NCBI RefSeq assembly: GCF_027359395.1
Contig: NZ_CP114778.1
Span: 310,001 to 374,000, forward strand
Reading direction: 5' to 3'
Source of the DNA: Prochlorococcus marinus str. MIT 1013
GTDB lineage: Bacteria; Cyanobacteriota; Cyanobacteriia; PCC-6307; Cyanobiaceae
DNA length: 64,000 nucleotides
In this document: positions 30,315-51,896 of the stretch, piece after piece
Layout of the letters: the number at the start of each line of letters is the position of its first letter
Numbering within the stretch: position 1 is the stretch's first letter
The notes under the pieces: generated by a model
The model's database searches: none
What the model was told of the DNA's origin: nothing
The model's input: the letters and a program-made list of their open reading frames with translations, nothing else
Position numbers and translations under genes: made by a program

Positions 30315-31595
30315 ATGTGCAATGAAATAATAGATAACGAAATAATAAATATAATATCTAGATTCAAACAGACAAATAACACAAGCTCTGTATTAAAAGA
30401 TCTGACACATCTGAAAACTTACTCAATAGATGACTCTCAAACCTTAGAAATAGATGATGCTATTTCATTAGAAAAAATATCGCGTCATTACAAGTTATGG
30501 ATCCACATTGCATCACCTTCTTCATATATTGAATATCAATCAGCTATTGATAAGAAGGCAAGGAAGCTTATTTCAACTATTTATTTATCAACTAATACTT
30601 ATTACATGCTTCCCGAAATTTTAATTAATAATTTTTTTAGTCTAAGTGAAAAAGAAAAGAGAGAATCATTGAGCATAGGTGTTATTTTTAATGAAGACGG
30701 CAGTGTTTCTTCTTCAGAAATAGTACCGACTTTAATCAAAGTAGACTACAGATTAAACTATTCAGAAGCTGATGAACTTATTGATTATGCTCCAAAAGAA
30801 GAAGATTTAAACTATATCTCACAAATTTTACAAAGTAGAAAATGCTGGAGAAAGAATTCAGGTGCTGTGGAAATACTAGAATCATATGGAAAGATTATTG
30901 TAGAAGATAAGATTCCCATCCTTAAGATAATAGATCCAACGTTATCTAGACAATTAATAAGTGAAGCAATGATCTTGTACGGAAATATAATTTCTGATTT
31001 TACTAAGGTCAATAAAATTCCTGTACCATATAGGGTTCAAGAAAGCATTGATATAGTTAGTAAAGACAATATTCAAACTTCGAATAATAATGTTTTATAT
31101 AATTTTTTACTTAAGAAAAACATGAGTAAATCATATTATTCTTTAACCCCTATGCCTCACTATAGTTTAGGTTTAACATCTTATTTACATTCTACATCGC
31201 CTATTAGAAGATATGCTGATTTGTTAGTCAGTTATCAATTAAATAGATATCTTAAAAATAAAGATCTTATATCTAAAGAAGAAGTTGAACAAATTATTCA
31301 TGATATTAATAATCAAGGAAGACAAAATATTATGAGATATAGAGAAGATCAAAAATATTGGTTAAGTAAATGGTTCGAAAATAACTCGTTTAGAGAATAT
31401 CAAGTAATATTACTCAATTGGATAAACAGATTTAAAAATATATGTATTTTATACTTTATAGAATATAAGTTTTCTACTATATGTAATTTAAATTCAAAAA
31501 TAAATTTAAATATTGGAGATAATTTATACGTTAAAAATACAATCCATAATAATAATGATATAATTCATTTTGAATTAATTTCATCATCTAAATAA
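30315..31595 (+). CDS. Short RNB-domain exoribonuclease (RNase II/Zam type)
   Basis: A 426-residue RNase II-like protein consisting of little more than the catalytic RNB domain. The metal site is intact in SIDDSQTLEIDDA: D39, E45, D47 and D48 align with D201, D207, D209 and D210 of E. coli RNase II, with one Asp-to-Glu change. The downstream motif STSPIRRYADL is also intact. Cold-shock domains and a full S1 domain are lacking. Cyanobacterial relatives are named Zam after an acetazolamide-resistance phenotype. It is probably a 3'-5' exoribonuclease, and it follows rpsR closely. Confidence 0.88.
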   Translation: MCNEIIDNEIINIISRFKQTNNTSSVLKDLTHLKTYSIDDSQTLEIDDAISLEKISRHYKLWIHIASPSSYIEYQSAIDKKARKLISTIYLSTNTYYMLPEILINNFFSLSEKEKRESLSIGVIFNEDGSVSSSEIVPTLIKVDYRLNYSEADELIDYAPKEEDLNYISQILQSRKCWRKNSGAVEILESYGKIIVEDKIPILKIIDPTLSRQLISEAMILYGNIISDFTKVNKIPVPYRVQESIDIVSKDNIQTSNNNVLYNFLLKKNMSKSYYSLTPMPHYSLGLTSYLHSTSPIRRYADLLVSYQLNRYLKNKDLISKEEVEQIIHDINNQGRQNIMRYREDQKYWLSKWFENNSFREYQVILLNWINRFKNICILYFIEYKFSTICNLNSKINLNIGDNLYVKNTIHNNNDIIHFELISSSK

Positions 31596-47681: not shown

Positions 47682-48029
47682 ATGGGTCAACCTAATTCAA
47701 ATTCTAAATTAGATATCAGTGACTCAAATGATTCTACACCTTTTATAAGTGTGTTAATTACAACCTTCAGTACAATATTTTTAGCAGAGTTAGGTGATAA
47801 AACTCAGCTTGCAACCTTAATGCTTTCTGCTCAGTCGGGTAGACCACTTATTATTTTCATTGGAGCCGCACTAGCTCTTATTTCTACAAGTCTTCTTGGA
47901 GTAATGATTGGTAGGTGGATAGCAAATAATTTCCCAAGACAAAATTTTACAGTTGTTTCTGGAATAATTATGTTAAGTTTAGGGATATACCTAGTAACAA
48001 TAGGTGTTATTGACGTTTTTCAAAATTAA
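47682..48029 (+). CDS. UPF0016/TMEM165-GDT1 family half-transporter, first copy
   Basis: A 115-residue membrane protein with a single ELGDK metal-site motif at 36-40 in FLAELGDKTQLATLML. Known relatives (Gdt1, TMEM165, cyanobacterial Mnx/Hmx) export manganese or calcium and carry two such motifs, one per half. Here the two halves are separate genes: this one and the next, 16 bp downstream. About three hydrophobic spans are visible. Manganese homeostasis for photosystem II is a plausible role. Confidence 0.85.
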   Translation: MGQPNSNSKLDISDSNDSTPFISVLITTFSTIFLAELGDKTQLATLMLSAQSGRPLIIFIGAALALISTSLLGVMIGRWIANNFPRQNFTVVSGIIMLSLGIYLVTIGVIDVFQN

Positions 48030-48045
48030 AATTTGAATTGGTTAA

Positions 48046-48339
48046 ATGTTGCTTACACTTCTTTTCACAACATTTGTCACTGTATTTCTTGCTGAAATGG
48101 GTGACAAAACTCAATTAACAACAATAACTTTAAGTAGTACAACCAATAAACCCTTGGCAGTATTTATTGGATCGTCAATAGCTTTAATATTAGCAACGCT
48201 TTTGGGAGCTTTAGCAGGTGGTTCTATTGCTAATCTTATTCCTGCTTACTTACTCAAACTGCTTTCTGGAATAGTATTCTTAACTATTGGAATTAATCTT
48301 CTAGCACAATGTAAAAAACAATATACTAGTAATAGCTAG
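48046..48339 (+). CDS. UPF0016/TMEM165-GDT1 family half-transporter, second copy
   Basis: A 97-residue partner of the preceding gene, with the motif EMGDK at 17-21 in FLAEMGDKTQLTTITL and three hydrophobic spans. It lacks the polar N-terminal extension of the first copy. The two are likely cotranscribed and form a heterodimer equal to the full two-motif transporter, by analogy with Synechocystis and plastid members. Confidence 0.85.
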   Translation: MLLTLLFTTFVTVFLAEMGDKTQLTTITLSSTTNKPLAVFIGSSIALILATLLGALAGGSIANLIPAYLLKLLSGIVFLTIGINLLAQCKKQYTSNS

Positions 48340-48423: not shown

Positions 48424-50727
48424 ATGACAACAGTTTTAAAAATACTTGAAAATATTGAGAGAGAGAATGGTTTAGATCTTTCTAAACTGGAGAAATCCTT
48501 GAAGCTTACAAAGAAACTAGATAGAGATAAGTTACGCATAGCTATTAATGCTCTTACAAAGCTAGGCATAGTTCAAAATATTAACAATGACACACTGAAT
48601 ATTAACACCGAAATCGATTTTATTAGGGGTAGGGTTCGTTGTAGCAGTAAAGGATATTGCTTTGTTGTTAGAGAAGATCAAGGTGAAGATATATATATTA
48701 GAGAAGCTAATTTAAATAATGCTTGGCATGGTGATTCAGTAATTGTTTTAATTACTAAACAAGGCTTGAAAAGACGAGCTCCTGAAGGATCTATACAATG
48801 TGTATTAGAAAGATATAATGATATTTTACTTGCTAAAGTTGATACTGATATATTAACAGGAGAGCTAAAGGGCTACCCATTGGATGACAGAATACCAGTA
48901 ATTATTGAGTTAGATAAAGAGATAGATAATCTAAATAAGCATCCGAGCACAGATCTAATTTATGAGATAAAAATAAATAAATATCCAATTGCTCAATTCA
49001 ATGCAAAAGGTTCAATAATTAGAGAATTGCCAATAAATTCTGGTTTAGATGGAGATATTGAAATATTACTCTCTAAAAATAAAATTATAAGGAATTTTGA
49101 TACCCCTAAAGTTTCTCCTAAGAAAGTTTCATTAAAAGGAAGAGACGACTTAACATCTCAACCTTCACTTTTATTTGAAAGTTGGGAATGTAATAATTCT
49201 CCATCATTACCCGCTATATATGCACAACCTTTTGAAGGTGGAAATAGGATATGGCTACATTCACCAACTGTATCTGAAAGAATCAATTTAGGCGGTAAAC
49301 TAGATGATTATCTCAAAAAGAAAGGAGAAGTCATTTGTTTAGGAAACAACTGGCTTGAATTTTTAAATGAATCACTTAGCAAAGCTTCTAAATTTAAACT
49401 TAATGAAGAGACCGAAGCTATAACTTTAATAATAGACATTGATAGAGAAGGGAAGATATCTGATTGGCAATTTTTACTTACTATTATTAAACCAGTAAAA
49501 ATTATAACACCAAAACACCTTAAAGCTATACACAACAGGAAAGCTACTTCTAAGTCTATTCCTATTGTTCTTAAGCCTATAAAGGATTATCTAGATGTCA
49601 TCTACACGATTATTCACTCTTCAAAACTAATCAATATTACTACTAATTTATCTATTAAATTAGATCAAAATATACCTAATTTGGAAAGATTAAGTGAATT
49701 ACATAAAGCTTTCCCAAGCAGAGACTTCAACGGATGGTCTAAATCATATGATTCTTTTGATCCTCAGTCAATAATTGACGTATTTATTAGATTGTCTAAT
49801 AACATACTTGCTAAACATTTAATTGGATACAATTTACCATTTATTTATAAGGAGCATGAGACCGTTGACCCATCAGCTATAAATGAATTAACAAAATCAG
49901 CATTAGCATTGGATAATAATCTTACTGTTAATATTGATGGTTCTGCAACAACAACTCAATTAATAAATTCATTTGAGACAAGTTCTGAAAAGAAAATACT
50001 TCATAAACTTATAAAACATATTATTCCTGGTATACATCTTAAACTTTATAAATCTAATTCTCTAGAAAACAATGATAATTTAAATCTAGACCTACTCGTC
50101 AATAATATAGAATCTCCTTGGTGTTGTCCTTCTTTAAATTATTGGAATATTTTTAATCAGTATATATTAACATCACTGTTAATAGATGGTAAAAATAAAT
50201 CTAACAGTCGAAGTAAGTTATATATTCAATTAGGAAAAAAAGACAGTTGGAATGATGTCAATTGGGATATATTCACATCTAAAATTAAACAGACTATTAA
50301 TAATCAGGCTAATTTAAAATTAATCCAAAATTTAAATAATATTCGAAAGAAATCAAAATCATTTAGAAATAACATTATTTCAATTGCTCAGGGTAGAGAA
50401 GCTCAACAAATTATAGGCAAAGAAGTCACTGCAATTATTACGGGTGTTCAAAGTTATGGTTTCTTCGCTGAGATAAATGATCTGAGTGCTGAAGGATTAG
50501 TTCATGTAAGTACCCTTGGTGATGATTGGTATGAATACAGATCAAGGCAGAACCTCTTGGTTGGTCGAAAAAACAAAAAGACTTATCAACTTGCACAAAA
50601 GATAAATGTTAAAGTATTAAAAGTAGACATACTAAAAAATCAAATTGACCTAGAGCTAGTAAAAAGAAATGAATCCGAATCAAAAAGCAATAATGAAGCT
50701 TTTAAAGATATTAAATCAAATAATTAA
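48424..50727 (+). CDS. RNase R homolog with degenerate RNB active site
   Basis: A 767-residue protein with the RNase R layout: N-terminal winged-helix-like region (1-60), a cold-shock domain (about 66-112, IRGRVRCSSKGYCFVVRE), the RNB region (about 240-640) and a C-terminal S1 domain (about 665-745, GVQSYGFFAEINDLSAEGLV). The catalytic stretch, TIDGEDARDFDDA in E. coli RNase R (D272-D281), is here replaced by LLFESWECNNSPSLPAIYA, with no Asp, and the FTSPIRRYPDL motif is degraded to IESPWCCPSLNYW. The reading frame is intact and the RNA-binding ends are conserved, so it is not an obvious pseudogene. It is probably an RNA-binding protein without nuclease activity. ubiX follows 6 bp later. Confidence 0.87.
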   Translation: MTTVLKILENIERENGLDLSKLEKSLKLTKKLDRDKLRIAINALTKLGIVQNINNDTLNINTEIDFIRGRVRCSSKGYCFVVREDQGEDIYIREANLNNAWHGDSVIVLITKQGLKRRAPEGSIQCVLERYNDILLAKVDTDILTGELKGYPLDDRIPVIIELDKEIDNLNKHPSTDLIYEIKINKYPIAQFNAKGSIIRELPINSGLDGDIEILLSKNKIIRNFDTPKVSPKKVSLKGRDDLTSQPSLLFESWECNNSPSLPAIYAQPFEGGNRIWLHSPTVSERINLGGKLDDYLKKKGEVICLGNNWLEFLNESLSKASKFKLNEETEAITLIIDIDREGKISDWQFLLTIIKPVKIITPKHLKAIHNRKATSKSIPIVLKPIKDYLDVIYTIIHSSKLINITTNLSIKLDQNIPNLERLSELHKAFPSRDFNGWSKSYDSFDPQSIIDVFIRLSNNILAKHLIGYNLPFIYKEHETVDPSAINELTKSALALDNNLTVNIDGSATTTQLINSFETSSEKKILHKLIKHIIPGIHLKLYKSNSLENNDNLNLDLLVNNIESPWCCPSLNYWNIFNQYILTSLLIDGKNKSNSRSKLYIQLGKKDSWNDVNWDIFTSKIKQTINNQANLKLIQNLNNIRKKSKSFRNNIISIAQGREAQQIIGKEVTAIITGVQSYGFFAEINDLSAEGLVHVSTLGDDWYEYRSRQNLLVGRKNKKTYQLAQKINVKVLKVDILKNQIDLELVKRNESESKSNNEAFKDIKSNN

Positions 50728-50733
50728 GAGTTA

Positions 50734-51342
50734 ATGAAAAGTACCGTTATTGCAATTACTGGGGCCTCAGCAATGCAAATAGGCGAGAGATCAGTACAAC
50801 TTATGTTGGAAAATAATAAATCTGTAGATTTAATACTTAGCAAAGGTGCCTATGAAGTAGCAAAAAGTGAACGCTCTATAAATATCCCTGTAGAGCCAAA
50901 AGCCCAGACAGTATTTTGGAGAAATAAACTAAATGTAAAATCAGGAGATTTAAAATGCTATAGATGGAATGATCATTCAGCCTCAATTGCTAGTGGTAGT
51001 CATAAAACAAAGGGTATGTTAATAGTTCCATGTTCTATGGGTACATTGGGAAGAATAGCATCTGGTTTTTCATTAGATTTAATAGAAAGATGTGCCGATG
51101 TTCACTTGAAAGAGAATAGACCACTAATAATTTCACCAAGAGAATCACCATTAAATTTAATACATATAGAAAACATAAAACGTCTAGCTATTGCTGGAGC
51201 ATTAATTGTTCCCCCTATTCCTGCGTGGTATACAAATCCAAACACAATTGAAGATATAATTGATTTTATAGTTGTTAGAATGTTTGATTCACTTGGTGAG
51301 GATTTAAAAATTATAAAGAGATGGAAAGGTCCAAACAAATGA
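50734..51342 (+). CDS. ubiX: Flavin prenyltransferase UbiX
   Basis: UbiX attaches dimethylallyl phosphate to FMN, making the cofactor of UbiD decarboxylases. The FMN-binding start ITGASAMQIGERSVQLM is at about 7-23, and the CSMGTLGRIASGFSLDLIER block near 105-125, RPLIISPRESPLN and GALIVPPIPAWY are characteristic. The length of 202 residues is normal. It overlaps the next gene by 4 bp (ATGA). UbiD is not in the window. Confidence 0.93.
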   Translation: MKSTVIAITGASAMQIGERSVQLMLENNKSVDLILSKGAYEVAKSERSINIPVEPKAQTVFWRNKLNVKSGDLKCYRWNDHSASIASGSHKTKGMLIVPCSMGTLGRIASGFSLDLIERCADVHLKENRPLIISPRESPLNLIHIENIKRLAIAGALIVPPIPAWYTNPNTIEDIIDFIVVRMFDSLGEDLKIIKRWKGPNK

Positions 51343-51896
51343 AATTAAATTATCTACTTAAATTTATTCCATTATTATCCTCGTTAATATTCTTAACTTT
51401 TTTTTTCCTTACTAATCAAAAGGAATATACAAAATTAAAAATAGTTATTTGGAATACTCCAAGACTATCTTTAGGTACATATGTTGCACTATCAACAGGA
51501 AGTGGTTTTCTCTTCTCTTATGTTCTCACAACAAAACTTGCAAATATTAATAAACAAAGTATTAAAAAATCAATAAAATACAAAACTGACTATGAGGATC
51601 AACTAACCAACGTAAATAAAGATTCCTATAGTAGTATTAACCATGAGAAAACGTTAATAGAAAGGGATATAAAAGATCCTTCTCCGACATTAAATGCAAA
51701 TTTTAGAGTTATAGGAAAAATCAATAAAATGAAGTCTGATTTTATTAATAGGGATAATATTCAATCCGATTATTCTGATATTTCAAATGTATCTGGTGAA
51801 GATTCTTACAATGACCAACAAATGATATATGATAATTATGATAGTGAAATCCAAAAATCAAATGACTGGGATGATCAATCCTTTTTAAGGTGGTAA
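51339..51896 (+). CDS. LapA-like (DUF1049) inner-membrane protein with polar tail
   Basis: A 185-residue protein with two hydrophobic spans (about 7-25 and 43-63) separated by NTPRLSLGTYVALSTGSGF, the pattern of LapA-domain proteins. The remaining 120 residues are polar, acidic and low-complexity, ending NDWDDQSFLRW. I start at the ATG that overlaps the ubiX stop (ATGA); an ATG six codons earlier is also open. A role in envelope assembly is only suggested by the family name. Confidence 0.65.
   Translation: MKLNYLLKFIPLLSSLIFLTFFFLTNQKEYTKLKIVIWNTPRLSLGTYVALSTGSGFLFSYVLTTKLANINKQSIKKSIKYKTDYEDQLTNVNKDSYSSINHEKTLIERDIKDPSPTLNANFRVIGKINKMKSDFINRDNIQSDYSDISNVSGEDSYNDQQMIYDNYDSEIQKSNDWDDQSFLRW

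Follow-up and report, generated by a model that had tools for sequence, protein, structure and literature searches.

Cyanobacteria encode a clade of the RNase II/R family, Zam, whose members combine two cold-shock domains, an RNB domain and an S1 domain with a degenerate active site (PMC9145284). The Zam cysteines C73 and C79 are redox-active and required in vivo, cysteine mutants of PCC 7002 phenocopy the zam deletion, and the protein is regarded as redox-responsive; in the available part of that paper the reversible disulfide and the role in pigmentation are published for PCC 7002 only, and the word Prochlorococcus is absent from its main text. Purified PCC 7002 Zam had neither nuclease nor RNA-binding activity, but the protein aggregated (PMC9145284).

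According to a review, Anabaena Alr1240 is a binding partner that stimulates RNase E, and it also degrades unstructured RNA (PMC10989914); its gene is the first of a three-gene transcription unit (PMC10287535). In two genomes of the same class as the window's, the Zam gene precedes ubiX and a third gene of the same orientation, and the gene of Rnb, the second RNB protein, comes after rpmG and rpsR. On this gene order Alr1240 is probably Zam, as the available part of PMC9145284 likewise says. The nuclease activity credited to Alr1240 then means either that some Zam proteins outside the family analyzed here are active, or that there is an error in the assignment or the preparation. Outside bacteria, a solved structure exists for yeast Ssd1, a dead relative of RNase II (PMC8934651).

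Identity, domains and fold of the Prochlorococcus protein

We analyzed a window of 64,000 nucleotides, meaning the whole stretch taken from the Prochlorococcus marinus MIT 1013 genome, in which one long frame and its parts are central:

48424..50727, + strand: zam, 767-aa catalytically dead RNase R-like protein (ORF, Pfam, family-wide profile and protein matches)
48622..48822, + strand: Zam cold-shock domain 1, residues 67-133 (Pfam, conservation)
49138..50181, + strand: Zam RNB domain without catalytic residues, residues 239-586 (Pfam, alignment)
50404..50661, + strand: Zam S1 domain, residues 661-746 (Pfam)

The frame starts with ATG and has no internal stop, which bears out the uninterrupted 767 codons described in the first-pass annotation. 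The RNA-binding domains that the annotation took to be retained were recovered by Pfam above cut-off (OB_RNB 69-125, CSD2 87-133 and S1 664-744, with RNB at 240-586). The protein is related to cyanobacterial Zam over its full length and has the same order of cold-shock, RNB and S1 domains; it is Zam, the cyanobacterial pseudonuclease of RNase R type published in 2022 (PMC9145284). The annotation had known of no described example of such a protein, but Zam and Ssd1 (PMC8934651) had already been described. Among sequences of solved structures the matches were RNase R, and the NCBIfam RNase R model scored 182.6 bits where the cut-off demands 597.85, so that the equivalog score was not reached.

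An AlphaFold2 model built from 79 sequences (pLDDT 86, pTM 0.85) still predicts the RNase R fold. Foldseek placed RNase R structures on top (8cdu, 7dic, 5xgu), with a target-normalized TM-score of 0.81 to E. coli RNase R (5xgu), and a second structural comparison gave Z values of 33-35 for RNase R.

Cold-shock domain 1 (3.58 bits) and S1 (3.49 bits) are the most conserved parts, compared with 2.47 bits in the RNB domain and a protein mean of 2.68, and they have the slowest dN (0.091 and 0.087 against 0.425). The S1 domain carries a basic segment, DDWYEYRSRQNLLVGRK, at residues 700-716, and its residues D701, W702, Y703, L712, G714 and R715 are identical in 105/105 family and 62/62 other cyanobacterial sequences. 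In these and all later counts "family" stands for the window's Prochlorococcus/Synechococcus/Cyanobium family; its 145 Zam sequences were thinned to 105, with the fragments L021, L025 and L026 and the stop-containing L147 dropped, and were aligned with 62 other cyanobacterial sequences (167 in total).

Distribution and gene neighborhood

Zam was matched in 145 of 151 family genomes (123 of 124 when limited to those of good quality), its nearest named relative being that of Prochlorococcus sp. AG-402-L09 (82%). When the phylum was searched with a profile built from 18 Zam sequences, 71 of 146 genomes gave a match. Of these, 67 belong to the class, and the four that lie outside it matched only in part (about 190-490 of 750 positions). 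Of the 75 genomes without a match, the 20 listed all lie outside the class.

The neighborhood was compared over the best 79 of 564 relatives, all in the window's family, and each count refers to the loci with enough flank. The gene adjoining zam is the following:

50734..51342, + strand: ubiX-like flavoprotein gene (Pfam Flavoprotein)

It lies 3′ of zam in 68/75 loci and in 2/2 distant genomes. DUF2996 and tldD likewise lie 3′ of zam in 69/69 and 66/66 loci, respectively. Just 5′ of zam the window has two adjacent half-size Gdt1-type transporter genes (47682-48029 and 48046-48339; Pfam GDT1), which recur in 72/72 and 74/74 loci, counts in which the two paralogous halves may cross-match. Between ubiX and DUF2996 lies a gene for a 191-aa protein with no Pfam match (51321-51896), present in 39/71 loci; no link emerged between it and the third member of the zam unit in the distant genomes (best E 0.088). 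PADLOC returned no match for zam as an anti-phage defense gene.

The former catalytic site

The earlier reading of this protein as an RNase R homolog without catalytic residues was confirmed by alignment with E. coli K-12 RNase II and RNase R, which also places both active-site blocks where that reading had put them:

49177..49215, + strand: former metal site of Zam, residues 252-264, with E252 (RNase II D201), P260 (D207), L262 (D209) and P263 (D210)
50116..50160, + strand: former TSPIRRY block of Zam, residues 565-579 (PWCCPSLNYWNIFNQ), including C567 and C568

In the same alignment RNase II Y253 corresponds to C305 and R500 to L571. The window protein thus has an acid at one of the four catalytic positions (E252), and the RNase R tetrad and the arginine of RR(Y/F) are absent.

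The complete set of four acids was found in 0/105 family Zam and 0/62 other cyanobacterial Zam sequences, compared with 73/73 Rnb sequences, all of which also have the catalytic arginine; in the Zam rows L099 and L100 the alignment at the active site is unsure. Within the family 74/105 Zam sequences have no acid at the four positions and 31/105 have one, whereas outside it 4/62 have none, 25 have one, 29 two, 4 three and none four. The first-pass annotation had reasoned that homologs with an intact motif would point to a recent loss; none was found among the 167 Zam sequences, which rules out a recent loss confined to the MIT 1013 genome and indicates that the loss is old and general, though less complete outside the family. 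There, the D209 position is Glu in 41/62 and Asp in 15/62 sequences and the R500 equivalent is kept in 33/62, against 1/105 within the family.

As judged by alignment, the dead site inside the family reads Pro-x-Leu-Pro. The D207 position is proline in 104/105 sequences and valine in one, never an acid, and L262, P263 and W254 occur in 97/105, 93/105 and 102/105; in the former TSPIRRY block P565 and W566 are each present in 100/105. With no acid at D207 and proline or leucine at the metal site, catalysis by family Zam proteins is unlikely.

The six former catalytic columns carry a mean of 3.19 bits compared with 2.47 for the RNB domain, a value equaled or exceeded by 3470 of 100000 random column sets, and the D201 column is unconserved in the family (1.48 bits). 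This extra conservation is a moderate sign that the refilled site is under selection, suggestive and not strong; W254, E285, R286 and the cysteines were chosen post hoc. In the available part of PMC9145284 the Zam site is termed poorly conserved.

Cysteines of the family

Two sets of cysteines can be told apart, and the positions first needed are:

48640..48660, + strand: Zam C73-x5-C79, the published redox pair (alignment, PCC 7002 numbering; PMC9145284)
49336..49338, + strand: Zam C305, at the RNase II Y253 position, family-specific

C73 and C79 carry the same numbers in the window protein as in PCC 7002 Zam (PMC9145284), and they are kept in 101/105 and 104/105 family sequences and in 61/62 and 60/62 of the others. 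A second set, C126, C305, C567 and C568, is by the same alignment specific to the family or almost so: C126 occurs in 105/105 family sequences against 0/62 outside, C305 in 94/105 against 0/62 (and 0/73 Rnb), C567 in 73/105 against 3/62 and C568 in 70/105 against 3/62. From the alignment with RNase II, C305 would lie near C567 and C568.

Proposed role of Zam

By analogy with its relatives, we give an even chance to the reading that Zam is a dead RNase R-type protein acting as a cofactor of RNA decay that binds RNA, docks onto RNase E and is tuned by redox state. Zam is predicted to retain the RNase R shape, its metal site is gone, and we infer that the MIT 1013 protein does not hydrolyze RNA. 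Its working surfaces would be cold-shock domain 1, with C73/C79, and S1, with its strongly basic segment. As published work on relatives suggests, these OB-fold surfaces may bind both RNA and the catalytic portion of RNase E, with an affinity that the redox state of C73/C79 may govern. Through Zam, the redox state of photosynthesis would then adjust how fast a set of transcripts decays. The former active-site cleft, refilled in the family with prolines, leucine, tryptophan and cysteines, may serve as a structural or a second thiol site. The MIT 1013 genome contains RNase E and a PNPase-like protein. Speaking against the cofactor reading are the degradation of unstructured RNA credited to Alr1240 (PMC10989914), the two or three acids kept in 29/62 and 4/62 Zam sequences outside the family, and the lack of RNA binding by the aggregated PCC 7002 protein (PMC9145284).

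Zam might instead act like Ssd1, with the exteriors of its cold-shock domains binding chosen mRNAs and restraining their translation and RNase E not involved. The two proteins share a common fold (7am1, TM 0.59/0.56; Z 28.7 over 607 residues), and a dead RNB domain with conserved cold-shock domains is the Ssd1 pattern (PMC8934651). We nevertheless regard this as unlikely, since the insertions in cold-shock domain 1 and S1 that block the Ssd1 funnel are not seen in Zam, as judged from Pfam spans of 57 and 81 residues, and the published partner evidence at hand favors RNase E.

The shortened RNase II-type partner

The MIT 1013 genome encodes just two RNB proteins, Zam and the following:

30315..31595, + strand: Rnb, short catalytically complete RNase II-type protein, 426 aa (Pfam RNB, 224.6 bits)

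Its gene comes after rpmG and rpsR, 17 kb from zam. D39, E45, D47, D48 and STSPIRRYADL are retained, as had been described. The accompanying statement that Rnb lacks full RNA-binding ends is right for the N-terminus and wrong for the C-terminus: with a full-length relative as query, the alignment (row L053) runs from residue 290 of 684 to residue 679. A single-sequence structure prediction of the short Rnb had a pLDDT of 31.

Among 13 named Prochlorococcus genomes Rnb was matched in ten, starting at query residue 258 or later, in frames of 398-449 residues, and none was found in three drafts. Frames were 671-812 residues long in 11/11 other named genomes of the family (Synechococcus, Cyanobium and others) and in 10/10 same-class genomes. 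A tree of the RNB part, from a quick search without bootstrap, with long branches flagged and 70 of 73 rows different, resolves the short form into two changes, one in a Prochlorococcus clade (39 rows, support 100) and one in genus g31 (5 rows). On this tree, the N-terminal ~285 residues of Rnb disappeared on two occasions, one of them in Prochlorococcus. Genus g31 (L240-L243, L250) lies at the base of the family, and its Rnb was shortened independently of that of Prochlorococcus.

The missing region was searched for elsewhere in the genome and not found: the N-terminal query matched 3/3 controls with a long Rnb and 0/17 short-Rnb genomes at E <0.05. A match in genome G097 (E 0.0665, 53 residues, two stops) was taken as chance. 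The region has no Pfam cold-shock match in the long form, and its naming as cold-shock domains follows the RNase II comparison in the available part of PMC3293843.

Two side observations concern other genomes. The same-class genome G051 combines a very reduced Zam (L100, frame 699) with an unusually long Rnb frame (L222, 812), and genomes G271, G321, G330, G353 and G359 of family f31 have an extra RNB match (frames of 740-777 residues) beyond Zam and Rnb.

It is quite improbable that Zam supplies RNA in trans to the shortened Rnb. The N-terminal loss in the Prochlorococcus clade and in genus g31, the absence of the lost region elsewhere and the presence of only two RNB proteins would fit such a division of labor. 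Isolated RNB domains of the E. coli enzymes are, however, active, and the two genes are far apart; the full acid set of Zam is also lost in 62/62 sequences outside the family, and Rnb is long in the 10 same-class genomes checked (10/10), so the two losses were not simultaneous. Also a long shot is the wider reading that Prochlorococcus Zam (binding and RNase E docking), Rnb (nuclease) and a second thiol site formed by C305 and C567/C568 make up one redox-sensitive split RNase.

Possible residual activity, selection and phycobilisomes

A weak or altered 3′-5′ nuclease activity of Zam appears very doubtful. In its favor are the degradation of unstructured RNA credited to Alr1240 (PMC10989914), probably Zam by gene order, and the acids at D209 and the R500 equivalents outside the family. 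Against it stand the family sequences, in which D207 is never acidic, most members have no acid at all and R500 is kept once, and the inactive PCC 7002 protein, with its aggregation caveat (PMC9145284).

Compared with its nearest named relative, zam has a dN of 0.098 and a dS of 0.766, a ratio of 0.13 (Nei-Gojobori), in agreement with the purifying selection that had been expected. The ratio was below 1 in 305/305 close pairs (dS 0.08-0.8; range 0.059-0.642, median 0.353; pairs non-independent), and the frame is open in the 24 same-genus matches except L021 (TAA). In spite of the lost active site, a decaying pseudogene is refuted by these ratios and open frames and by the confidently predicted fold.

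In the MIT 1013 genome PF00502 finds two genes, adjacent and outside the window (1812312-1813364), which NCBIfam names cpeB and cpeA. As zam is kept and selected despite only two phycobiliprotein genes, the published phycocyanin phenotype does not reflect its sole purpose, and Zam, maintained by selection in a lineage that has no phycobilisome, must have a basic task beyond supplying that structure.

Comparison with known systems

A seemingly new dead RNase can now be named as a member of the published Zam family, which sharpens the question of Zam's task. Novel in this analysis are the form that the dead site and its cysteines take in the family, and the two separate shortenings of Rnb; in the open-licence literature we found no report of a shortened Prochlorococcus Rnb or of a refilled Zam site. 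Together with the refilled site, the additional cysteines and the truncated Rnb offer concrete positions that can be tested. The split-enzyme reading, if true, would give a bacterial example in which a single task in RNA decay is divided between two halves that are dead or trimmed.

The window protein resembles published Zam in its two cold-shock domains, RNB, S1, degenerate site, C73/C79 and cyanobacterial distribution, and differs from it, as described in the available part of PMC9145284, in the P-x-L-P site and in C126, C305, C567 and C568; the published phenotype involves phycocyanin, whereas PF00502 finds only cpeB and cpeA in MIT 1013. With RNase R of E. coli (5xgu), B. subtilis (8cdu) and M. 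genitalium (7dic) Zam shares fold and domain order, but it has none of the catalytic residues and scores far below the RNase R equivalog cut-off. Ssd1 and the fungal Dis3L2-derived pseudonucleases (PMC8934651, PMC8097288) are like Zam in their RNase II fold, lost catalytic acids and conserved cold-shock domains; their origin is separate, the available parts of the two papers report no redox cysteine pair, and the blocked funnel of Ssd1 has no counterpart in the Zam Pfam spans. Synechocystis Rnb Sll1290 (PMC3293843) is of the same orthologue type as the window Rnb, with the four acids and the arginine kept in both, and the window copy differs from it in having no N-terminal region.
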